From: Caulobacter sp. FWC2
Lineage (GTDB): Bacteria > Pseudomonadota > Alphaproteobacteria > Caulobacterales > Caulobacteraceae
DNA length: 64,000 bases
Direction of reading: 5' to 3'
Assembly (NCBI RefSeq): GCF_002742625.1
Contig: NZ_PEBF01000001.1
Coordinates: 2,790,001 to 2,854,000 of the forward strand
Shown here: positions 10,600-51,341 of the stretch, piece after piece
How the letters are laid out: each line of letters opens with the position of its first letter
Numbering within the stretch: the stretch's first letter is position 1
The notes under the pieces: generated by a model
Told to the model about the DNA's origin: nothing
Database searches by the model: none
What the model saw: only the letters and a program-made list of their open reading frames with translations
Translations under genes and position numbers: made by a program

Positions 10600-10944
10600 A
10601 TGACCCGTGAACGCCTCGCCGCCGCCAGGTCGCTGATCGCCATCGACCTCGTCGGTGAGCCTACCTATCTCCAGACCCTTCCGGCCACGATGCATTTGGG
10701 CGTCGGCCAGGGTGGCCGTGTCCTCGTCTGGCTGGGCGATGACGCGGGCGATGAACCTCTGCTCGATCCGGTCCGGCCCGATCGACCGCCGGAGGTCGAG
10801 CTTCACGGTGAAGGCGCGCTGCCCCGGGCGGTGCTGAACCATCCGCGGGCGCAGCACGTGGAGACGTTCTTCGATGGCTTGGGCGACCCCGAGGCCGCGC
10901 CCTTGGGCTGGTGGCATGCGCGCGTTTGGCTGAGGGCTGCATAG
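10600..10944 (+). CDS. Hypothetical protein
   Basis: A 114-residue protein of unknown function with no signal peptide or membrane segment. It has a mixed composition with a central proline-rich turn (PVRPDRPPEVELHGEG) and an aromatic C-terminus (GWWHARVWLRAA). It ends 70 bases before the start codon of the interrupted SRAP gene. The opposite strand carries a long open frame over the same bases, but that frame is Gln/Arg/Gly-rich and also crosses the DksA-like gene, so I prefer this strand. Confidence 0.45.
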   Translation: MTRERLAAARSLIAIDLVGEPTYLQTLPATMHLGVGQGGRVLVWLGDDAGDEPLLDPVRPDRPPEVELHGEGALPRAVLNHPRAQHVETFFDGLGDPEAAPLGWWHARVWLRAA

Positions 10945-11017
10945 CGCCTGGTCGAGCGCGCTTTTCAGCGGCTTGCGCCATCGCTAGCGTCAGGAACCAT
11001 CGCAGGAGCCTTCAATG

Positions 11018-12395
11018 TGTTGGTGTGGACGGCCTCTCATCCCAACGGTTTGATGGCGCTTAGCGTCAACAAGCCAGTCGAGAGGAGAGCAACATGGTTA
11101 CACCAGTGCGTATCGGCATGGACACGGCTAAGTCCGTGTTCCAGCTCCACGGAGTGGATGAGAACGAGATTGTAGTTCTGCGGCGCCAGCTCCGGCGCGC
11201 CGACATGATCCGCTACTTCGAAAAGCTTCCGCCGGCCCTTGTCGCCATCGAGTCCTGCGGCAGTTCCCACCATTGGGCGCGGCTCCTGGAGTCATTCGGC
11301 CACGAGGTGAAGCTGATCCCGCCGCAGTACGTGAAGCCGTACGTTAAGCGCGGGAAGAACGACGCGGCCGACGCCGAAGCGCTCTGCGAGGCCGTCACCA
11401 GGCCGACGATGCGCTTCGTGCCTGTAAAGTCCAAGGAGCGTCAGGCGGCCTGCATGTTGATGACCGTGCGCGAACGCCTGGTCATGGTGAAGTCGCAGCT
11501 CAGCAACGCTTTCCGGAGCTATGCGGCGGAGTTTGGGATCGTGGGCCCGTCCGGCCGGCAGAACGTCAACGGTCTGATCGCGCGTGTCCTCGAAGATGAC
11601 ACGCTGCCGGAACTGGCCCGCGAGCTGTTCCACTTCCAGGCCAAGGAGTACGCCGCAGTCGAGGCGCGCCTGGCGGAGATCGACGCGAAGCTAATGAAGT
11701 GGCACCGCGCTGACGAGCTGAGCCGGCGCATCGCCACCATTCCCGGCGTCGGTCCTATTGGCTCGACGATGCTGAGCATGAAAGCGCCGCCGGCGGAGAC
11801 CTTCGGCTCCGGGCGCGACTTCGCGGCCTGGCTTGGTCTCACGCCGCGAGACCATTCGACGGGCGGTCGATCAAGGCTCGGCGGGATCACCAAGGCCGGA
11901 GATCCATCGATCCGGTCAACGCTGATCGTCGGGGCCACAGCGCTGCTGCGCCATGTGCGCCTCGGGCATACAAAGCCATCGCCATGGCTGGCCAAGCTCA
12001 TGGAGCGGAAGCCGCCCAAGCTGGTCGCGGTAGCGATGGCCAACAAGTTCGCCAGGATCGCTTGGCGGCTGATGGTGTCGGGCGGAGTATACACCCGACC
12101 CGCAGCGCTGAACCCGACCTGATCTGAGACCGGCGCCCGGAAGCCAACGAGGCTGCACCCGGACCGCCCAGGAGACTTGCACGAACGAATAGATGGAAAT
12201 GACCGATCGGTCGGTACGCGCGACATTCCGAAGATTGCACTGGCACCCAGATGTCGCCAATGTGTTTGGAGCGCGAGTAGCGAACACCATCTTGGCCAGC
12301 GAGGTTTCCTCGCGCAAAATAGGCCGGACATCTGATAGCAAGCGATTAGGTCAGACAGTCTATGCGTTCACTGCAAGCGGGGGGCCGTCCACATC
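11018..12395 (+). mobile_element. IS110-family (IS1111-like) insertion sequence
   Basis: An element of about 1.38 kb bounded by the two halves of the SRAP gene. It carries 11-base subterminal inverted repeats TGTGGACGGCC at 11024-11034 and, inverted, 12383-12393; subterminal rather than terminal repeats are typical of the IS1111 subgroup. A TG flanks both sides (11018-11019 and 12396-12397), so the edges are uncertain by about 2 bases and no longer target duplication is seen. One transposase gene reads in the direction of the host gene. The roughly 270 bases after it (12123-12395) hold no gene. Confidence 0.85.
11094..12122 (+). CDS. IS110/IS1111-family DEDD transposase
   Basis: A 342-residue transposase, full length for the family. 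The N-terminal RuvC-like DEDD domain shows GMDTAKSVFQLHG, VAIESCGSSHHWARLL and KRGKNDAADAEALCEA. The C-terminal Transposase_20 domain shows IATIPGVGPIGSTMLS and the catalytic-serine region FAAWLGLTPRDHSTGGRSRL, then GGITKAGDPSIRSTLI. GAGAGGAGAGCAAC upstream is a good ribosome site. No frameshift or stop is present, so the element may still be active. Confidence 0.95.
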   Translation: MVTPVRIGMDTAKSVFQLHGVDENEIVVLRRQLRRADMIRYFEKLPPALVAIESCGSSHHWARLLESFGHEVKLIPPQYVKPYVKRGKNDAADAEALCEAVTRPTMRFVPVKSKERQAACMLMTVRERLVMVKSQLSNAFRSYAAEFGIVGPSGRQNVNGLIARVLEDDTLPELARELFHFQAKEYAAVEARLAEIDAKLMKWHRADELSRRIATIPGVGPIGSTMLSMKAPPAETFGSGRDFAAWLGLTPRDHSTGGRSRLGGITKAGDPSIRSTLIVGATALLRHVRLGHTKPSPWLAKLMERKPPKLVAVAMANKFARIAWRLMVSGGVYTRPAALNPT

Positions 12396-13153
12396 TGCAA
12401 CCTCTACGCCCTGATGAAGGCGCGCGCCGAAGTCGCCGCCTTGGCGCGGGCGATGACCGATCTCAACAACAACCAGCCGCCCATGCCCGGGATTTATCCG
12501 GACTATGCCGCGCCGATCATCGTCAATGGCGACGATGGGCGCAGGATGATGCGCGATGCGCGCTGGGGCATGCCGTCTTCGAAGGAAGCCCTGTTCGCAG
12601 CCGCGACCAAGAGGGCCGACAAGCTCCGCGCCAAGGGCGCAGAGTTCGACTTCGCCGAACTGCTGAAGATGGAGCCCGACAAGGGCACCACCAATGTGCG
12701 CAACACGGTCAGCTTGAAGACCGGCAGGATCAATACCCACTGGAAGGCCTGGCTGGGTCCGGAAAACCGCTGCCTCGTCCCCTTCACGTCGTTCGCCGAA
12801 CCCGACCAGGACCATGAGAAGACCCGCAAGAACATCTGGTTCGCCCTCGATGAGAGCCGTCCCGTCGCCTTCTTCGCCGGCCTCTGGACGCCGCACGCCT
12901 GCGTCAGAATGATCAGCAAGGGTTGGGAGGATGTCGTCGCCTATGGCTTCCTGACCACGGACTCCGCCGAGCCGGTCAGAACCTACCATTCACAGGCCAT
13001 GCCGGTGATCCTGACCGAACCGGAGGAATGGGATCTGTGGATGAGCGACGCGCCATGGAGCGAGGTCGCCAGGCTTCAGCGTCCGCTTCCGGAACGCCTG
13101 AAGATCGTCGCGGTCGGCGGCAAGAGCGACGAGATCATTCCAGCCTGATCGGC

Positions 13154-14611: not shown

Positions 14612-14626
14612 GAACAAAGATGGAAC
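14612..14626. promoter_or_regulatory. LexA (SOS) box for the imuA-imuB-dnaE2-alkB operon
   Basis: GAAC-AAAGATG-GAAC, the reverse complement of the alphaproteobacterial LexA box GTTC-N7-GTTC, with exact half-sites and 7-base spacing. It lies 17 bases before the imuA ATG and just after a TTGACT (14591-14596). Repression by LexA and induction by DNA damage is the known control of this cassette in Caulobacter. Confidence 0.9.
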
Positions 14627-14643
14627 ATATCCATTTTAGCAGC

Positions 14644-15432
14644 ATGACCCCTTCAAGCCCCTCACCCCCGCCCCCTGTCGCGCTCGACGCGCTTCGCCGC
14701 CAGGTTCACGCCCTCGAGGTCGAAGGCCGTGCGACGCGCGCGGTGTTGCCGTTTGGCGTCGCCCAGATCGATGAGCGGTTGCCCGGTGGCGGCTTGCTGC
14801 TCGGCGGGCTGCACGAGGTGGCCGGCGGCGCGGATGGCGCGCTGCACGGCGCGGCCGCGGCGCGCTTCGCCGCCGGGATCCTGGCCCGCGCCGACGGCGA
14901 TGTCCTGTGGTGCCTTCGCCAGCGCGACCTTTTCGCCCCGTCCCTGGCCCAGGTCGGCCTGCCGCCCGAGCGGGTGATCTTCGCCGAGGCCGGCGACGAG
15001 GCCGGCGTCCTGGCCTCGATGGAGGAAGGCCTGCGTCACCCGGGCCTGGCCGGGGTGGTCGGCGAGGTCGCCAAGCTGTCGATGACCGCCTCGCGCCGCC
15101 TGCAGCTGGCGGCCGAGAAAAGCGGCGCGATGTGCATCGCCATCCGAAGATGGAGACGGGTGGCGGACGCGGCCGATCTTGGCCAGCCGACCGCGGCCCT
15201 GACCCGATGGCGGGTGTCGGCCCTACCCTCCTCACCGTTGCCTGTTCCCGGCGTGGGCCGTCCCCGCTGGTTTCTCGAACTTCTCCGCTGCCGCGCCGGC
15301 GACGCCTTCGACATCGAGCTGGAAGCCTGTGACGCCAAGGGTCATCTCCGTATTCCTGCCCCGCTGGCCCACCGACCGGTTGGCCCGGATGCAGGCCAGA
15401 ACGCCCCCGGCTGGGACCGCACCGCCGCCTGA
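14644..15432 (+). CDS. imuA: ImuA, SOS mutagenesis cassette protein
   Basis: A 262-residue RecA-like/SulA-related protein of the inducible mutasome; it works with ImuB and DnaE2 in translesion synthesis. After a proline-rich N-terminus, the family core reads LPFGVAQIDERLPGGGLLLG, then HEVAGGADGALHG, a strand LWCLRQRDLFAPSLAQVGLP, and GVVGEVAKLSMTASRRLQLA. I chose ATG 14644 because the in-frame ATG at 14620 lies inside the LexA box. Its last 104 bases overlap the start of imuB in another frame. It is first gene of a four-gene SOS operon. Confidence 0.93.
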   Translation: MTPSSPSPPPPVALDALRRQVHALEVEGRATRAVLPFGVAQIDERLPGGGLLLGGLHEVAGGADGALHGAAAARFAAGILARADGDVLWCLRQRDLFAPSLAQVGLPPERVIFAEAGDEAGVLASMEEGLRHPGLAGVVGEVAKLSMTASRRLQLAAEKSGAMCIAIRRWRRVADAADLGQPTAALTRWRVSALPSSPLPVPGVGRPRWFLELLRCRAGDAFDIELEACDAKGHLRIPAPLAHRPVGPDAGQNAPGWDRTAA

Positions 15433-16882
15433 CGTCCCTATCGTCATGGTCGGACGGGTCGGCCGGCGCCGGGCGATCGCGCATATGAACCTGGCCGCCG
15501 CCCGCACGGGTCTGCGCCTTGGCCAGGCGGTCGCCCACGCCACGGCCCTGGTCCCGGGCCTGGTGCTGCGCGATCTCGACGCGGCCGGCGACCAGGCCGC
15601 GCTCGAGCGGTTGGCCCTGTGGGCCCAGCGGCTCTACTCGCCCACGGTCGCGGCCGACCCGCCCGATGGCCTGGTCATCGACGCCAGCGGCTGCGCGCAT
15701 CTGTTCGGCGGCGAGGAGGCGATGCTGATCGACATCCGCCAGCGCCTGGCCAAGGTCGGTTTGGCCGCGCAGGTCGCCATCGCCGACAGTTGGGGCGGCG
15801 CCCACGCCCTGGCCCGCTACGGCCGCCGGGCGATCTTCATGGCCGCGCCCGGCGCGACCGGCCGTGACCTGCGCGACCTGCCGGTGGCGGCGCTGCGGCT
15901 GCCGGGTCCGCTGGTCCAGGTCCTCGCCAAGCTTGGCTTCGACACCATCGGCGAGCTGGAGGCCACGCCCAAGGGGCCGCTGGCCCATCGCCTGGGCCTG
16001 GAGCCCATCCGCCGGCTCGACCAGGCCTTCGGCCGCGAGCGCGAGGCGCTCGAGCCGGTGTTCGCGCCCCAGACCCTGCGCACGGCCAGGGTGTTCGCCG
16101 AGCCGATCGGCGCGCCCGAGACCCTGGCGCGGTATCTGGGCGCGCTGACCCTGGAGCTTTGCGCCCTGCTGGAGGCCGCCAGCCTGGGCGCAAGGTCGCT
16201 CGACGCCTTCTTCTTCCGGGTCGACAACCGCATCGAGACCGCGCGGATCGGCCTGGCCGTCCCGGCCCGCGACGCCAAGCGCCTGACCCGGCTGCTCTGC
16301 GAGAAGCTTCAAACCGTCGATCCGGGCTTTGGCGTCGACAGGATGGTGCTGGCCGCGCCGGGGGCCGAGCCCCTGGCCTATCGCCAGGACGAGGTGGCGT
16401 TAGGCCCCAAGGCCGGCCCCGGACACGACGCCGACCACGCCGGCCTGATCGATATCCTCTCCAACCGCCTGGGGCCCGAGCACGTCTATCGCCTGACCAG
16501 CGCCGACAGCGACCTGCCCGAACGCAGCGTGCGCAAGGCGCCGGCCCTGGCTCGGCCGCCGGCCTTCTCCTGGCCGGCCGATTGGCCAAGGCCCACCCGC
16601 TTTCTGCCGCGTCCCGAACCGATCGAGACCCTGGCCTTGCTGCCCGATCAGCCCCCGGCCTCGTTCACCTGGCGCGGGGTGCGCCGGCGCGTGCGGTGCG
16701 CCGACGGCCCCGAGCGCGTGTTTGGAGAATGGTGGAAGGCCGACGCGGAGCTGGCGCGCAGCAGAGACTATTTCCAGGTCGAGGACGAGGCCGGAGAGCG
16801 CTACTGGATCTATCGCGACGGCGACGGCGAGGATCCGGCCAGCGGCACGCAGCGCTGGTTCATGGCCGGGGTGTTTGGATGA
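15329..16882 (+). CDS. imuB: ImuB, catalytically inactive Y-family polymerase
   Basis: A 517-residue Y-family-like protein that links DnaE2 to the sliding clamp. The N-terminus [18 protein letters not shown] is the family's altered version of the polymerase motif, lacking the catalytic aspartate of DinB. The palm and fingers follow ([34 protein letters not shown]), then a little-finger region and the ImuB C-terminal domain ending [19 protein letters not shown]. It overlaps imuA by 104 bases and dnaE2 by 4 (ATGA at 16879-16882), so translation of the set is coupled. Confidence 0.94.
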
Positions 16883-19800
16883 ACAATCCCGCGCAAGGCC
16901 TTGAAGACCTGGGCGATTACGTCGAGCTGCAGTGCGCCTCGCACTTCTCCCTGCTGCGCGGCGCCTCTTCGCCGGGCGAGCTCTTCGACGAGGCCCAGCG
17001 CCTGGGCTACCGGGCCTTGGCGCTCTGCGACCGCAACAGCCTGGCGGGCTTGGTGCGCGCCCACATCGCCGCCAAGGCCACCGGCGTGCGGCTGATCGTC
17101 GGCTGCGAACTGGTGCTGCGCGAGGGCATGACGGTCCTGGTCTATCCCACCGACCGGCCCGCCTATGGCCGGCTGTGCCGGCTGCTGTCCTTGGGCAAGA
17201 GCCGGGCCGGCAAGGGCGCGTGCGACATCGACCTTTCCGACCTGGCCGCCCATGCCCAGGGCCTGATCGCCATCCTGGTCCCCGACCGGCCCGACGCGGC
17301 CTGCGCCGTCCAGCTCAAGAAACTCAAGGCCGTCTTCGGCCCGGAGGCCCATGTCGCCCTGACTCTGCACCGACGGCCTGGCGACGCCCTTCGGCTGCAT
17401 GAGCTGGAGGCGCTGGCCCGCGCGGCGGGCGTGACGCCGGTGGTGACCAACCGGGTGCTCTTCCACGACAAGGACCGGCGCCTGCTGCAGGACGTCGTCA
17501 CCTGCATCCGGGAGAACACCACCATCGACGATGTCGGCTTCAAGCGCGACCGTCACGCCGACCGTCATCTGAAGGCCCCGCGCGAGATGCTGCGGCTCTT
17601 CCCGCGCCACCCCGCGGCCCTCGCCGCGTCGGCGGCGATCGCGGCGCGATGCCTCTTTTCGCTCGACGAACTGACCTACCAGTATCCCCGCGAGGTCGCC
17701 GAGCCCGGCCAGACTCCCCAAGAGACCTTGGCGCGCCTGACCTGGGCCGGCGCGGCCCGCCGTTTTCCCGAGGGGGTGACGCCGGAGGTCAAGGCGATCC
17801 TCGATCATGAGCTGAAGCTGATCGGGACCTTGGGCTATGCGCCCTATTTCCTGACCGTCAACGCCATCGTCGCCTATGCCCGCAGCCAGGACATCCTCTG
17901 CCAGGGCCGCGGCTCGGCCGCCAATTCGGCGGTCTGCTACGTGCTGGGGATCACCTCCATCGACCCCGAGCGCAATGATCTGCTGTTCGAGCGCTTCGTC
18001 AGCCAGGAGCGCGACGAGCCGCCCGACATCGATGTCGACTTCGAGCACGGTCGGCGCGAGACCGTCATGCAGTGGGTGTTCGAGACCTACGGCCGTCACC
18101 GCAGCGCCCTGGTCGCCGTCGTCCAGCGCTTTCGGCCGCGCGGGGCGGTGCGCGACGTGGGCAAGGTGCTGGGCCTGCCCGAGGACATGACCAAGGGCCT
18201 GTCCAGCCAGATCTGGAGCTTCAGCCGCGAGAAGATCGAGGAAAAGCACGCCCGCGACCTCGGCCTGGACCTGTCGGATCGCCGGCTGCGCCTGACCCTG
18301 ACGCTGGCCCAGCAGCTGCTCAACACGCCGCGACACTTTTCCCAACACCCGGGAGGCTTCGTCCTGACGCACGACCGGCTCGACGAGCTCGTGCCGATCG
18401 AGCCGGCGCGGATGGAGGGCCGCCAGATCATCGAATGGGACAAGGACGACATCGACGCGCTGAAGTTCATGAAGGTCGACTGCCTGGCGCTGGGCATGCT
18501 CACCTGCCTGAAGCGCGGCCTTGATTTACTGAAGGATCACAAGGGCGTGGCGCTGGATCTTGCCACCATTCCGCCGGAGGACCCGCGCACCTATGCGATG
18601 ATCCGCAAGGCCGACACCCTGGGGGTCTTCCAGATCGAGAGCCGGGCCCAGATGGCCATGCTGCCCCGGCTCAAGCCTCGCTCGTTCTACGACCTGGTCA
18701 TCGAGGTGGCGATCGTGCGACCCGGCCCGATCCAAGGCGACATGGTCCATCCCTATCTGCGTCGGCGCGAAGGCAAGGAAAAGGTCTCCTATCCCAAGCC
18801 GGAGCTCGAGAAGGTGCTGGGCAAGACCTTGGGGGTGCCGCTCTTCCAGGAGCAGGCCATGCGGGTGGCGATCGAGTGCGCCGGTTTCACGCCGGGCGAG
18901 GCCGACCAGCTGCGCCGGGCCATGGCGACCTTCAAGTTCACCGGCGGGGTCAGCCACTTCAGGACCAAGCTGGTTGGCGGCATGGTCGAGCGCGGCTACC
19001 CGCAGGACTTCGCCGAGCAGACCTTCTCCCAGCTGGAGGGCTTTGGCTCCTATGGCTTCCCCGAAAGCCACGCCGCCAGCTTCGCACTGCTGGCCTACGC
19101 CTCCTCCTGGCTCAAATGCCATCATCCCGAGGTCTTTTGCGCGGCCCTGCTCAACAGCCAGCCGATGGGTTTCTACCAGCCCGCCCAGATCGTCCGCGAC
19201 GCGCTCGAGCACGGGGTCGAGGTGCGCCCGATCTGCGTCAACGCCTCGCGCTGGGACTGCACGTTGGAGGAAAAATCCGATGGCGTCCTGGCTGTGCGCC
19301 TGGGGCTGCGCATGGCCGGCAAGCTGGCGGAGGCGGACGCGGCCCGCCTGGTCCTGGCCCGCGCCGAAGACCCGTACCGCTCGGTCGACGACGTCTGGCG
19401 CCGCGCCCAGATCGGGACCGGCGCCCTGTCGCGCCTGGCCGAGGCCGACGCCTTCCAGCCCAGCCTGAAGCTGGGGCGGCGCGAGGCGGCCTGGGCCATC
19501 AAGGGTCTGCGCGACGTCGCCCTGCCGCTGTTCGACCAGCCGGGCGCGGCGGAACTGAACGAGGCCGCGCCGGCCCTCAAGGCCATGACCGAGGGTCGCC
19601 AGATCGTCGAGGACTACAGCCATGTGGGCTTGAGCCTGCGCCGCCATCCTTTGGCCCTGCTGCGCGAGGACCTGGCGGGTCTCGGCCGCGTCCCTTGCCA
19701 GGTCGCCACCGGCGCGCGCGACAGCCGTCACGTCAAGACCGCGGGCCTGGTTTTGGTGCGACAGACGCCGGGCACCGCCAAGGGGGTGATGTTCATGACC

Positions 19801-20043
19801 ATCGAGGACGAGACGGGCGTATCGAACCTGGTGATCTGGAAATCCCTCTACGAGAAGCAGCGGCGCATCGCCCTGGGCGCCCACCTTATCGGCGTGGATG
19901 GACGCATCCAGCGCGAGGGCGATGTCGTTCACCTGGTGGCCTACAAGCTTCATGACCTTTCGGGCCTGATGGCGACCCTGCAGGATCGCGGCGCCGACGC
20001 CGGCGATCTGTCCTGGGCTCGCCGCAGCCGCAACTTCTGTTGA
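16879..20043 (+). CDS. dnaE2: DnaE2, error-prone DNA polymerase III alpha subunit
   Basis: A 1054-residue C-family polymerase, the mutagenic polymerase of the ImuAB cassette. The N-terminal PHP domain starts [17 protein letters not shown] and continues [17 protein letters not shown]. The palm has [18 protein letters not shown] and the catalytic aspartates in [16 protein letters not shown], followed by [19 protein letters not shown] and [20 protein letters not shown]. The C-terminal helix-hairpin and OB-fold ([18 protein letters not shown]) close the protein. ATG 16879 overlaps the imuB stop; the same frame is open far upstream inside imuB but that part is not DnaE2-like. It is followed after 4 bases by alkB. 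Confidence 0.96.
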
Positions 20044-20047
20044 GCCG

Positions 20048-20656
20048 ATGAGCGACCAGCCTAGCCTCTTTAAGCTTACCGACGCGCCGCGCGCCGCGCC
20101 GCCGCGCGGGCTGCCGGACGGCCTGGTCTACCAGCCGGACCTCGTCGGCGCCGAGGACGAGAGGGCCCTCGTCGCCGCGGTCGCCGACCTGCCGCTCAAG
20201 CCGTTCCAGTTCCAGGGCTATGACGGTCATCGCCGCGTGGTCTCGTTCGGCTGGGCCTACGACTTTGCCCGCCAGGTCCTGGAGCCGGCCGAGCCGATGC
20301 CGGCGTTCCTCCGGCCGCTACGCGACAGGGTGGCGGCCCTGGCCGGGCGCGATCCGGAGGATTTCCAGCAGGCCTTGGCGATCGAATATGCCCCGGGCGC
20401 GGGGATCGGCTGGCATCGCGACCGGCCGCAGTTCGACATCGTGGCCGGCGTCTCGCTGCTGTCCAGCTGCCCTTTCCGGTTCCGGCGGCGAACCGGTGAG
20501 CGCTGGGAGCGCGCGACGCTTCGGCCCGCGCCGCGCTCGGCCTATGTCCTGACCGGGCCCGCGCGCACCGCGTGGGAGCACTCGATCCCGCCCGTGGAGG
20601 CGCTGCGTTATTCGTTGACCTTCCGCACCTTTCGGACGCGTCCCGGCGCGGCCTAG
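20048..20656 (+). CDS. alkB: AlkB-type 2-oxoglutarate/Fe(II) dioxygenase
   Basis: A 202-residue DNA dealkylase that reverses 1-methyladenine and 3-methylcytosine lesions. Iron ligands are His123 and Asp125 in GIGWHRDRPQF and His178 in WEHSIPP. The 2-oxoglutarate arginine pair lies in RYSLTFRTFR (Arg187 onward). Residues 63-75 (RVVSFGWAYDFAR) form the substrate-lid region of the short AlkB/ALKBH2-like forms. It starts 4 bases after dnaE2 and is almost certainly part of the LexA-controlled operon, placing direct alkylation reversal under SOS control. Confidence 0.92.
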   Translation: MSDQPSLFKLTDAPRAAPPRGLPDGLVYQPDLVGAEDERALVAAVADLPLKPFQFQGYDGHRRVVSFGWAYDFARQVLEPAEPMPAFLRPLRDRVAALAGRDPEDFQQALAIEYAPGAGIGWHRDRPQFDIVAGVSLLSSCPFRFRRRTGERWERATLRPAPRSAYVLTGPARTAWEHSIPPVEALRYSLTFRTFRTRPGAA

Positions 20657-47234: not shown

Positions 47235-48125
47235 ATGGCATACCGCCCGACCTGGCAAGGACATCTTCGGCTCTCGCTCGTGACCTGCCCGGTGGCGCTC
47301 TATACGGCCACCAATGCCGGGGGCGAGGTCCATTTCAACCTGATCAATCCCAAGACCAACAACCGCATCAAGATGATCACGACCGACCCCGACACAGGGC
47401 CGATCGAGCGCGCCGACCTGGTCAAGGGCTATGAGGTCTCCAAGGGCGAATACATCCTGCTGAGCCAGGACGAGATCAACAGCGTCAAGCTGGAGAGCAC
47501 CAAGACCATCGACATCGAGAAGTTCGTGCCCGCCGAGGACATCGACCGGGTCTATTGGGACAATCCCTATTATCTGGTCCCCGACGGCAAGCTGGCCCAA
47601 GAGGCCTTCGCGGTGATCCGGGAGTCCATGGCCAGGGCCGGCCAGATCGGTATCGGGCGGGTGGTGATGTCCAGCCGTGAGCGCATCGTGGCCCTGGAGC
47701 CGCGCGGCAAGGGCATCCTGGCCTATACCCTGCGGACCGACGCGGAGGTGCGCAAGGAGGACGAGATCTTCGGCGGGATCAGCGACAAGGATCCCGATCC
47801 TCAAATGATCGCCATCGCCCAGAAGATCATCGAGCAGCAGGAAGGCCCATTCGATCCGTCCCAGTTCGTGGACCGCTATGAGGAAGCGCTCAAGGAGCTG
47901 ATCGCCGCCAAGCAGAAGGGCCACAAGGTCGCCAAGGTCGAAGAACCCGAAGACACCAATGTCATCGACCTGATGGCCGCCTTGCGCGCCAGTCTGTCGG
48001 CCAAGGACGCGCCGGCCGCCAAGGCCCCGGCGAAGGCCGGCGCGAAGGCCAAGGCCGCCGAGAAGCCCGCCGCCAAGACCAAAGCCAAGGCTCCCGCCAA
48101 GACCGCGCACAAGAAGGCGAGCTAG
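47235..48125 (+). CDS. ku: Bacterial Ku, DNA end-binding protein
   Basis: A 296-residue Ku homodimer subunit that threads onto double-strand ends and recruits LigD. The Ku core spans about residues 5-235 (WQGHLRLSLVTCPVALYTAT, ISDKDPDPQMIAIAQKIIEQ). The C-terminal 45 residues are a Lys/Ala-rich tail (KAPAKAGAKAKAAEKPAAKT), as in Ku proteins where the tail aids DNA binding. GGCAAGGAACC precedes the ATG. It converges on the ligD operon and has its own stress-promoter candidate; S. meliloti ku2 is a known RpoE2-dependent gene, which agrees with this arrangement. Confidence 0.95.
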   Translation: MAYRPTWQGHLRLSLVTCPVALYTATNAGGEVHFNLINPKTNNRIKMITTDPDTGPIERADLVKGYEVSKGEYILLSQDEINSVKLESTKTIDIEKFVPAEDIDRVYWDNPYYLVPDGKLAQEAFAVIRESMARAGQIGIGRVVMSSRERIVALEPRGKGILAYTLRTDAEVRKEDEIFGGISDKDPDPQMIAIAQKIIEQQEGPFDPSQFVDRYEEALKELIAAKQKGHKVAKVEEPEDTNVIDLMAALRASLSAKDAPAAKAPAKAGAKAKAAEKPAAKTKAKAPAKTAHKKAS

Positions 48126-48126
48126 G

Positions 48127-48684
48127 CTAGGCCTCTCCGCCGTTCGCGCGATAGTCCCGCCGCGCCTTGTCCAGTTCGTCTTGCGCCGCTTTTCGCGCCT
48201 TGGCCCAGCGCTGTCGCGCGGCCAGGGCGTCGGCTTCCAGCGCGTCGCGACGGCGCTGGAGTTCCCCCTCTTCGGCCAGGCGCTCGGTGTTGAGGGCCGT
48301 GAGCCGCTGCTCGGCGGCGGCGAGGCCTGAGCGGTCGGGCGGCGGCTTGAAGGCTGGCGCGGGTGGCGGCGCAGCTTCCTTGGCCACCAGTTTCAGCCGT
48401 GGCTTGGGACGCGAAGGCCCGGCCGGCGCCTGGGGCAGCCCCGGCTCCAGGCTGAAGGGGTCGTCCGATCCCACGGCCCGACGCAACGGGATCTCCGGAT
48501 GCGCCAAGGCCGCGGCGACCGCGTCAGGATCGTCGGTCACCTTGGCTCGGCCCTCGGCGAAGAGGTTCTGGCGGATGCCCCAGGCGGCCAAGGCCGCGAC
48601 CTGGCTGGGCGCGGCGACCACCGAGTCATGGAAGCCGAACTGGGCCTGGAAAACCTTCAGGCGTCGCGCCGGCGCCTTAGCCAT
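48127..48684 (-). CDS. Conserved coiled-coil protein in the ligD operon
   Basis: A 185-residue protein. The N-terminal 75 residues are a conserved domain seen in alphaproteobacterial hypothetical proteins (RRLKVFQAQFGFHDSVVAAP, SQVAALAAWGIRQNLFAEGR, HPEIPLRRAVGSDDPF). A Pro/Lys linker follows, then a long charged coiled coil (ALNTERLAEEGELQRRRDAL). It starts 2 bases after the ligD stop, so it is co-transcribed with ligD, and ends 1 base from ku. It could be an NHEJ accessory, but that is inference from position only. Confidence 0.75.
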   Translation of the reverse strand: MAKAPARRLKVFQAQFGFHDSVVAAPSQVAALAAWGIRQNLFAEGRAKVTDDPDAVAAALAHPEIPLRRAVGSDDPFSLEPGLPQAPAGPSRPKPRLKLVAKEAAPPPAPAFKPPPDRSGLAAAEQRLTALNTERLAEEGELQRRRDALEADALAARQRWAKARKAAQDELDKARRDYRANGGEA

Positions 48685-48686
48685 GG

Positions 48687-51341
48687 CTAGACCCGACCCA
48701 GGCGCTGGATGGCCGGTTCGAGCGGCCGCTCACCGTCGCAATAGTCCTCCCAGGCCGTCAGCTTGCGCACGAGGGCCGGGACGGTGCGAACGGTGTACTT
48801 GGCTGGGTCCAGCCCTTTCTTGACCTGGGTCCAGGAGATCGGCATCGAAACCGGCGCGCCAGGGCGGCCGCGCGGCGACAGCGGCGCCACTGCCGTGGCC
48901 ATGCGATCGTTGCGCAGATAGTCCAGGAAGATCCGTCCGCCGCGATCCTTCTTGGCCATGGTGATCAGGTAGCGTTCGGGGTCATCGGCGGCCATCGCCT
49001 TGCAGACATCGCGGGCGAAGGCCTTGGCGATATCCCAGGTGAGCCCCTCGGCCGACAGCGGGGTGACCACGTGCAGGCCCTTGCCGCCGGTCGTCTTGCA
49101 GAACGAGACCAGGCCTAGGTCGGCGAGGCGATCGCGCACCTCGCGCGCGCCCTCGATCACCCGGTCGAACGGCACGTCGGGCGCGGGATCCAGATCGAAC
49201 ACCAGCCGGCCGGGCTGTTCGGGCAAGAAGGGTTCGCTGTTCCAGGGATGCAGCTCCAGGGCTCCGACCTGGGCGGCGGCCACCAGGGCCTCGACCTTGT
49301 CGAACTGCAGGTAGGGCTTGCGGTCGCCCCAGACCTCCACTTCGGTGATCAAGGCCGACTGGCCCTGGCCGGTGTGGCGCTGGAAGAACTTCTGCTCGCC
49401 CTCGATGCCGTCTGGCATGCGGATCATCGAGCAGGGTCGGCCACGCACGTGCTCGATCATCCAGGCGCCGACCGCCTCGTAATATTGCGCCAGGTCCAGC
49501 TTGGTGACCAGCCGGCCATCGCCCGCGTCCGGCCAAAGGGTCTTGCCGGCGTTGGAAATAGTCTGGCCCATGACCACGGCCGAACCCTTTGGACTGACGG
49601 TCGGCGATGTGACCGTCGCCGCAGCGGAGGCGGCCTTCTGGGCCTTGGGCTCGGCCACCTTGGCGCCGGCCGGCGCGGGCGTTTCGGCCTCGACCTCGGC
49701 GGCCGGCTTGTCCGCGCGCAGCCCCTTGAAGGCGGCTTGTCGGATCTGGCCGTCGGCGGTGAAGCCTTCGTACTCGATCTCGGCGACCAGTTCGGGACGC
49801 ACCCAGTGGACCTCGCCGAGCCTTCCGGCCCGGCTCTTGCCCTCCTTGCCGTCGAACGGCGACGTAGGGGTTTCCAGCGCCTTGAGCCGCGGCAGGATCG
49901 TGGCGACCTTGTCGCGGCCAAACCCGGTGCCCACCCGGCCGACATGGATGAGCTTGCCGCCCTGGTGCACCCCGGCGATCAGCGAGCGAAAGGCGCCGTT
50001 GGTCGTGGTGTAGCCGCCGATCACCACCTCATGGCCGGCGCGGCACTTGGACTTGGTCCAGGTTTCGCCGCGCCCCGAGCGATAGGGCGCGTCCAGGCGC
50101 TTGGAGACGATGCCTTCCAGATCCATGCGGCAGGCCGACAACAGCACCGCGTCCCCGGCCGTGATGAAATGGTCCACATAGCGCAGACGCGGCCCCGCGC
50201 CGTCGACATGGGCGGCCAGCCGGTCCTTTCGCGTCGCCAGCGGCAGGTCGCGCAGATCCTCCGGGCCCTCGAACAACTGGTCGAAGACGAAGAACACCAG
50301 GTCGGCGGTCTTGCCCTCGGAAATGGCCGCTTGCAGGGCCGCGAAATCCGGCGCGCCGCTGTGATCCAGCGCGCAGATTTCGCCGTCGATGATCCCGTCG
50401 CCAAGCGCCGCGCCGGCCGCGGTGATCTCGGGGAACTTGGCCGACCAGTCCAGGCCCTTGCGCGTGCGCAAGGTCGCCTTGCCGTCCACCGTGCGCAGTT
50501 GCATGCGGTAGCCGTCGAACTTGATCTCGTGGGCCCAGCCCGGCCCGGCGGACGGCTTTTCGACCGGCTTGGTGAGCTGCGGCTCGACGAAGTCTGGCAG
50601 GACCTTGACGGTCTTGGTCTTGGCCGGCGACGAGGCCTTCAGCGGCTTGATCAGGCCCGCCGGGGCGCTGTCGTCGCGATCGCTTTGCCAGACCGCACCG
50701 GCGTCGGCGCCCTCCCCGGTCATGAACGGCGTGGCGGCCTTGCCCTTGCCATTGGCGATCTCGGTCATGGTCCGGCCCGAGGCGATCGAACGGTCCTCGT
50801 CGGTCGGACCGCCGGGATTGCCGGGCTGGGCGGCTTCGTCGCGATGTTTGATCAAGATCCAGCTGGCCCGGCCGCGGCTGTCGCGCTTGGTGCGCACGAT
50901 CACCCAGGAGCCGTGCATGCGTCCGCCTTCCATGACGAACTTCAGCTCGCCCTTGCCCAGCGCCGCGCCGATCTTTTCGAAGCCCTTTTCAGGCGCCCAG
51001 TAGCCGCGATCCCACAGCATCACCGTGCCGCCCCCATACTGGCCCTTGGGGATCGTGCCTTCGAAGTCGCCGTAATCGAGGGGATGGTCCTCGACCTCCA
51101 TGGCCAGCCGCCGCTCGGCCGGGTCCAGCGAAGGTCCCTTGGGCACCGCCCAGGACTTGAAAGTCCCGTCATATTCCAGGCGCAGGTCGAAATGCAGGTG
51201 ACTGGCGGCGTGCTTCTGGATGACGAACCGCAAGGCTTGCGACGGCGCGACCTTGACCTTGCCCGACGGCTCGGCCGTCTGCGAGAAGTCGCGCATCGCC
51301 TGGTATTTCGAAAGCTTCGACGGGGGTTTCGCGACGGCCAT
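48687..51341 (-). CDS. ligD: LigD, multifunctional NHEJ DNA ligase
   Basis: An 884-residue enzyme with the order phosphoesterase, ligase, polymerase. The N-terminal 3'-phosphoesterase (about 25-170) has RFVIQKHAASHLHFDLRLEY (His44, His48, His50, Asp52) and MEVEDHPLDYGDFEG (His86). The ligase (about 245-540) has adenylation Lys274 in HEIKFDGYRM, and VIDGEICALD and EGIVSKRLDAPY equivalents. After a Pro/Ala linker comes the AEP-type polymerase (about 600-884) with metal aspartates in LVFDLDPAPDVPF and FCKTTGGKGLHVVTPL. With Ku it repairs double-strand breaks. The promoter candidate is at 51361-51385. Confidence 0.96.
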   Translation of the reverse strand: MAVAKPPSKLSKYQAMRDFSQTAEPSGKVKVAPSQALRFVIQKHAASHLHFDLRLEYDGTFKSWAVPKGPSLDPAERRLAMEVEDHPLDYGDFEGTIPKGQYGGGTVMLWDRGYWAPEKGFEKIGAALGKGELKFVMEGGRMHGSWVIVRTKRDSRGRASWILIKHRDEAAQPGNPGGPTDEDRSIASGRTMTEIANGKGKAATPFMTGEGADAGAVWQSDRDDSAPAGLIKPLKASSPAKTKTVKVLPDFVEPQLTKPVEKPSAGPGWAHEIKFDGYRMQLRTVDGKATLRTRKGLDWSAKFPEITAAGAALGDGIIDGEICALDHSGAPDFAALQAAISEGKTADLVFFVFDQLFEGPEDLRDLPLATRKDRLAAHVDGAGPRLRYVDHFITAGDAVLLSACRMDLEGIVSKRLDAPYRSGRGETWTKSKCRAGHEVVIGGYTTTNGAFRSLIAGVHQGGKLIHVGRVGTGFGRDKVATILPRLKALETPTSPFDGKEGKSRAGRLGEVHWVRPELVAEIEYEGFTADGQIRQAAFKGLRADKPAAEVEAETPAPAGAKVAEPKAQKAASAAATVTSPTVSPKGSAVVMGQTISNAGKTLWPDAGDGRLVTKLDLAQYYEAVGAWMIEHVRGRPCSMIRMPDGIEGEQKFFQRHTGQGQSALITEVEVWGDRKPYLQFDKVEALVAAAQVGALELHPWNSEPFLPEQPGRLVFDLDPAPDVPFDRVIEGAREVRDRLADLGLVSFCKTTGGKGLHVVTPLSAEGLTWDIAKAFARDVCKAMAADDPERYLITMAKKDRGGRIFLDYLRNDRMATAVAPLSPRGRPGAPVSMPISWTQVKKGLDPAKYTVRTVPALVRKLTAWEDYCDGERPLEPAIQRLGRV

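Follow-up and report, generated by a model that had tools for sequence, protein, structure and literature searches.

The window analysed here, a 64-kb stretch of the Caulobacter sp. FWC2 genome (G000), contains a SRAP gene (YedK/HMCES family, PF02586) whose initiation triplet is separated from the codon of the catalytic Cys2 by an insertion sequence of the IS1111 group (IS110 family), and close relatives of this element are found at the same start point in many bacteria, so that the split is no accident. The explanation that we hold with high confidence is that these elements represent a lineage programmed by a bridge RNA or seekRNA and homing in on those codons of the MCNLY-type SRAP genes that are under the strongest constraint. 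The initial annotation had recognised the type of element, its position and the loss of the start, and had missed both the recurrence at this site and the match of the site to the element's own RNA.

All features described below lie on the plus strand. The Met1 ATG of the split gene, preceded on its 5' side by AGGAG and identified from the sequence and from the empty site of a sister insertion (L156, see below), occupies positions 11015–11017; the element extends from 11018 to 12395 and the first SRAP codon after it is the Cys2 triplet TGC (12396–12398), from which an open frame continues to the stop (12396–13148). The product of this frame matches PF02586 from profile position 2 with 64.1 bits, as compared to a gathering threshold of 27.1 (Pfam). 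Placement of the element exactly between Met1 and Cys2, as initially proposed, is confirmed, with the qualification that the left core TG can be assigned to either the element or the target, so that this placement rests on the published 7/3 convention. In the source genome the start codon is no longer directly before Cys2, the two being split by the element, and the predicted loss of the normal start holds, since no in-frame ATG, GTG or TTG puts a Cys at position 2: the first of these triplets in the leftover frame is that at 12414, and the sole codon before a Cys able to start at all is the ATC at 12393–12395. A start codon inside the element, offering neither ATG nor GTG nor TTG in frame, was rejected. 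Nor do the relatives begin at the equivalent of the ATG at 12414; indeed, among 56 homologous SRAP loci (L127–L182) 47 have ATG or GTG straight before TGY, four have the ATC of a right end or of a right-end-like sequence, two carry another insertion and three are unaligned at the start.

Neither profile search nor protein search found a second SRAP in the source genome (5.5 Mb), bearing in mind that a SRAP copy can escape the profile search, as did one in G056 that was subsequently found by protein search. The interrupted gene, the sole SRAP detected there, is probably inactive, and the insertion would very probably abolish functional SRAP in this genome; natural hosts that may lack SRAP could be used to study abasic-site protection.

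The element is 1378 bp long, its limits being derived from the sequence, from Pfam and from the 7-bp/3-bp rule given in the available text of PMC11187229. It encodes a DEDD transposase/recombinase (tnp, 11094–12122) of 342 aa, within the range of about 330–350 aa of the group, with both PF01548 and PF02371 over the cut-off. The left end begins with the 7-bp extension TGTTGGT (11018–11024), the first TG of which is one copy of the core, followed by the subterminal inverted repeat GTGGACGGCC (11025–11034, or TGTGGACGGCC, 11024–11034, if read with one more base); the right repeat is GGCCGTCCAC (12383–12392, or, similarly extended, GGCCGTCCACA, 12383–12393) and is followed by the 3-bp extension. 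About 270 bases of non-coding DNA lie 3' of tnp and contain a predicted bridge/seekRNA region whose limits (12176–12342) are those of the consensus fold predicted from 23 elements and in which the match to the target top strand lies 5' of that to the bottom strand; an Rfam search of positions 10900–12500 returned no match up to E 1. Under the 7/3 convention there is no target duplication, as judged from the sister insertion L085 and its empty counterpart L156, the 5-bp overlap of their alignments reflecting similarity at the junctions. This layout agrees with that of the IS1111 elements in the accessible part of PMC11187229, and the identification of the element as IS1111-type is thus borne out by the tnp domains, the repeats and the extensions.

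Relatives of tnp were drawn from the contigs of GTDB representatives (80 best of 350) and from 150 related genomes, 24 of which had matches, and a clade was defined by a tnp identity of at least 72%. This clade comprises 31 elements after merging of duplicates, 29 having a readable right end; the duplicates L004, L086, L088 and L090 as well as L005 and L044, whose right end is lost, were dropped before counting, and L125 and L143, found via SRAP and not via tnp, stand outside the counts. Within this sample, in which right ends were located by a fixed string (two mismatches allowed for L039) that strongly altered ends would escape, 26 of the 29 elements lie in the same orientation at a SRAP start or at its remnant, while three (L009, L030 and L070) lie elsewhere. 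The SRAP-site elements span at least eight alphaproteobacterial families, the hosts of the clade including Caulobacter, Bradyrhizobium, Nitrobacter, Methylobacterium, Methylocapsa, Aurantimonas, Rhizobium, Paracoccus, Siccirubricoccus and Erythrobacter. What appears to be a natural lineage of RNA-guided transposons is pitted against the near-invariant start of one repair gene. In addition to the source-genome frame, 20 other downstream frames were scanned (five broken ones being left out) and PF02586 was recognised in 18, the exceptions being the short, broken frames of L022 and L026 (Pfam). The codon preceding the element is ATG in 20, GTG in two and TTG in one of the 23 SRAP-site left flanks that were parsed. 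Of the 26 SRAP-site rows 20 were entered in a tnp tree, where they form a single 100/100 branch together with L009 and with L070, the latter being a very long row. In Aurantimonas endophytica three SRAP genes each harbor one copy, and two of these genes are now broken; both SRAP genes found in G056 carry the right end of the element. Nonetheless, the element is rare: within the order, its right junction with SRAP occurs in just two of 249 sampled genomes (the source genome and G056); in a class-wide sample it was present at E 1e-120 or better in two of 385 genomes, the source genome included. Elsewhere, three distant tnp relatives (43–50%) were found in viral contigs and 152 plasmid records contained relatives, the best being 80–81%.

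Could an untargeted insertion sequence have hit SRAP by plain chance and been kept on account of the dispensability of this gene? A close homologue of the source-genome SRAP exists in only 34 of 149 genomes of the family, and another SRAP, scoring above 200 bits, is present in 17 of the 25 genomes that harbor clade elements; in all 12 cases that were read it begins with MCGR and lacks the AAY read by the guide, unlike the MCNLY-type target; both facts would suit dispensability. This explanation was nevertheless rejected and retains practically no probability, for it is contradicted by the recurrence at one and the same base, in one orientation, of 26 of the 29 elements and by the covariation of their guides.

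The alternative of one ancient insertion, thereafter transmitted by descent or mobilised as a composite unit that includes SRAP, finds some support in the correlation between SRAP and tnp distances (r 0.46, permutation p 0.012, 16 rows) and in the left flanks common to six Bradyrhizobium copies. On the other hand, the left flanks of the 23 SRAP-site elements fall into 17 clusters, the interrupted SRAPs are 22–93% identical (median 47) as opposed to 59–100% (median 84) for tnp, the elements of the source genome (L001) and of L085 are 98% identical yet their SRAPs differ with a dS of 0.68, and empty orthologues exist. A single ancient insertion was accordingly rejected as highly improbable and, for the L085 copy, is directly contradicted by the empty L156.

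Indeed, L085 (G056), an element 98% identical at the DNA level to that of the source genome and residing in a SRAP 86% identical to the source-genome SRAP, has in L156 (G053) a counterpart that lacks the element, matches its two flanks at 100% (1426 bp) and 99.9% (1228 bp) and reads ATGTGCAATCTCTAC at the site; the sister copy has therefore recently inserted into a near-identical locus. The search for an empty twin of the source-genome copy itself gave none, and this sister insertion serves as its empty-site control. Six of the 33 Bradyrhizobium SRAP rows bear the element and are interspersed with empty orthologues, with five changes vs 5.6 for shuffles on a tree in which only two of 27 inner branches are well supported; the pattern is compatible with repeated insertion, and the insertions look independent. 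As to the premise that clean excision would restore the gene, excision of this kind is unlikely to be routine, because with ISEc11 the circle was formed and the rejoined target was not detected, as far as the accessible text of PMC11187229 goes.

The mechanism that we infer is that the element produces an RNA, encoded 3' of its transposase, that would act as a two-part guide and direct insertion. One segment would pair with the target top strand from the core outward (G-TGC-AAY-CT) and the second with the CAATGTG bottom strand; the complex would thereby recognise the Met-Cys-Asn-Leu start of MCNLY-type SRAP genes, and the circular element would be inserted between Met1 and Cys2 in one orientation. 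Such a start would constitute a favorable site, since neither its ATG nor the codon of the catalytic Cys2 has much freedom to change. In the source genome the candidate right-target guide AAGATTGCAC (12231–12240) is complementary to the top strand GTGCAAYCT, i.e., to the Cys-Asn-Leu codons, and the candidate left-target guide GCCAATGTG (12256–12264) has the letters of the top strand CAATGTG. Positions 12234–12240 and 12258–12265 are placed by the consensus fold (RNAalifold, 23 elements) on opposite sides of one predicted internal loop (columns 61–67 and 86–93), and in eight of the 45 predicted pairs both partners have changed in one sequence or more. The order of the two guides is the one reported for the IS1111 seekRNA in the available portion of PMC11187229.

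The source-genome right guide pairs at eight of 10 positions, the mismatches being Asn3 and the outermost base. Among the outgroup elements, the right guide pairs with its own site at 10 of 10 positions in L027 and L028, at nine of 10 in L029, L033, L035, L036 and L037, and at six plus one wobble in L025. Seven outgroup elements with other targets, a set without L036 (a near-copy of L035), L031, L038 and L108 (guides unparsed) and L041 and L089 (ends unparsed), reach a score of 13.57 of 15 with their own target vs 5.52 with those of the others, three of 20,000 permutations being as high (the own order itself represents one of 5,040), and for all eight guides, i.e., these seven and that of the source genome, the own target is the best or tied. 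Within the clade alone (24 rows, including the non-SRAP L009, L030 and L070) the scores are 11.62 on the own target vs 11.04 on the others, with nine of 20,000 permutations as high and the own target best or tied for just six of 24. At the third base of Asn3 the guide/target combinations in 26 clade rows are G/C 6, G/T 1, A/C 3 and A/T 16 (Fisher p 0.0022, relatedness not being corrected for), a table without L006 and L070, which have no TGYAA after the element, and L039, whose guide is unparsed, the non-SRAP L009 and L030 being kept. The SRAP of L021 reads AAC-TTG and its guide has changed correspondingly. There is no covariation at the third base of Cys2, where a target C is opposed by the guide base A in 15 of the 26 rows and by T in one. 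The non-SRAP clade elements fit their own guide at nine of 10 positions (L009), at seven plus two wobbles (L030) and at five plus one wobble (L070). Guide changes that follow synonymous codon changes offer a natural guide–target series for working out the IS1111 rules. Finally, the third left base of the element and the guide base that follows TG are identical in all 32 parsed elements, outgroup included, as they should be if the donor end, too, is read by the guide.

The 11-mer ATGTGYAAYYT alone fails to explain the bias towards SRAP, since only seven of 30 unoccupied copies in 10 genomes are at SRAP starts and 23 are elsewhere, vs 26 of the 29 insertions, a rough comparison in that sites already occupied by the element are outside the 30. 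In the Caulobacter genomes of this set the 11-mer is uncommon: none is left in the source genome or in G005, the single one of G053 is the SRAP start, neither of the two in G056, both SRAPs of which are occupied, is in SRAP, and two of the three in G020 are. The excess points to a broader recognition, to selection against insertions at other sites or to some peculiarity of SRAP. A dedicated SRAP-homing element might gain more than a fixed safe site, either because its right end keeps SRAP weakly expressed or because it benefits from the silencing of SRAP, a protein that crosslinks abasic single-stranded DNA. This extension of the homing model, which we regard as rather unlikely, would explain the preference for SRAP despite the 23 free guide-core matches elsewhere, and weak expression, if true, would make the insertion nearly harmless.

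Weak expression could come from the right end itself, where a Shine-Dalgarno-like G-run, an 8-nt spacer and the ATC directly before Cys2 (12379–12395) form a candidate ribosome site and start, so that translation would survive at a low level and the Cys would keep position 2. All clade right ends that were parsed terminate in ATC whereas the outgroup ends with ATA, the search having required CGTCCACAT or a close variant in which only the last base was free; furthermore, GGAGG is present in six right ends (L013, L015, L018, L021, L022 and L023), the downstream SRAP frame is open for at least 190 codons in 18 of 26 cases, and ATC follows a right-end-like sequence in two SRAP genes (L159, L164) in which no element is detectable in the fetched upstream DNA. 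Residual translation is still quite unlikely in our estimate: ATC is a very poor bacterial start codon, the G-run lies next to an inverted repeat that has C-rich DNA after its left copy and may thus serve the element, and the downstream gene is broken in eight of the 26 cases. The low dN/dS of the downstream SRAP (0.05–0.13 for Bradyrhizobium pairs, 0.12–0.45 for five other pairs) says nothing on selection after insertion, since the insertions look independent and younger than the divergence of the genes. The eight broken genes fit inactivation, the 18 open ones recent insertion or residual use, and in the source genome we infer a loss of SRAP activity. The sequences preceding Cys2 in L159 (G753) and L164 (G829), GGAGCCGTCCACATC and GGACCGCCCACATC, without a tnp relative in the fetched upstream DNA, are possibly scars that left ATC before the Cys.

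The bridge RNA/seekRNA mechanism is already known, while the SRAP start is apparently an unreported target: no IS110/IS1111 element at SRAP starts was found among the titles and abstracts listed from the open-licence literature. In the available text of PMC11187229 the seekRNA elements ISEc11, ISKpn4 and ISPa11 share with the present one the DEDD transposase, the downstream non-coding region, the subterminal repeats with 7/3 extensions, the top-strand match located 5' of the bottom-strand match and the lack of target duplication, and differ in their targets, namely a short sequence for ISEc11, attC for ISKpn4 and a REP for ISPa11, as opposed to the start of an MCNLY-type SRAP gene. Similarly, the bridge RNAs of IS621/IS110 (PMC11208160, accessible part) have internal loops complementary to target, donor and core and a guide covarying with the target; there, the RNA of the IS110 group is in the left end and IS621 targets REP elements, whereas IS1111 members have a predicted RNA in the right end, as does the source-genome element. 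ISEc21 provides a precedent for the targeting of catalytic codons: its guide, according to the same portion of PMC11187229, is directed at the codons around the second D of the DDE in certain IS3-family elements, i.e., at a catalytic position within a conserved gene; ISEc21, however, is of the IS110 type, with an upstream RNA and a reversed match order, and its target is another transposon and not a cellular repair gene.

The SRAP start may be used by a second element as well, for in two Bradyrhizobium genomes (L127, L136; L032 right flank) this site is interrupted by another repeat, of the TTATGCCGAC type. In Bradyrhizobium diversitatis (L006 3797) the first SRAP codons after the element, Cys2 included, are missing. 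The sequence TGTGGACG of the left repeat (11024–11031) resembles the MCGR-type SRAP starts ATGTGTGGACGC (L219, L221, L222), probably by coincidence, since GTGGACG is common to the non-SRAP relatives. The source genome also contains a tnp relative that is 46% identical (G000:C1:2640458-2641453) and a tnp fragment, 49% identical and with a stop (G000:C2:58474-58755).

The description of the window as rich in abasic-site repair was overstated: repair genes are present, and they are of the translesion, alkylation-type and end-joining kinds. A Pfam scan of 25 window proteins, part of the ORFs, identified besides SRAP a DNA polymerase III alpha-type protein, which we read as DnaE2, a 2OG-Fe(II) oxygenase, Ku, LigD and another ATP-dependent ligase. 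The polymerase and oxygenase genes lie downstream of the SRAP gene, and Ku and LigD further on (14620–20653, 47235–51341); from position only, an imuA–imuB pair is suspected before the polymerase, the segment 14620–15429 being without a Pfam match.
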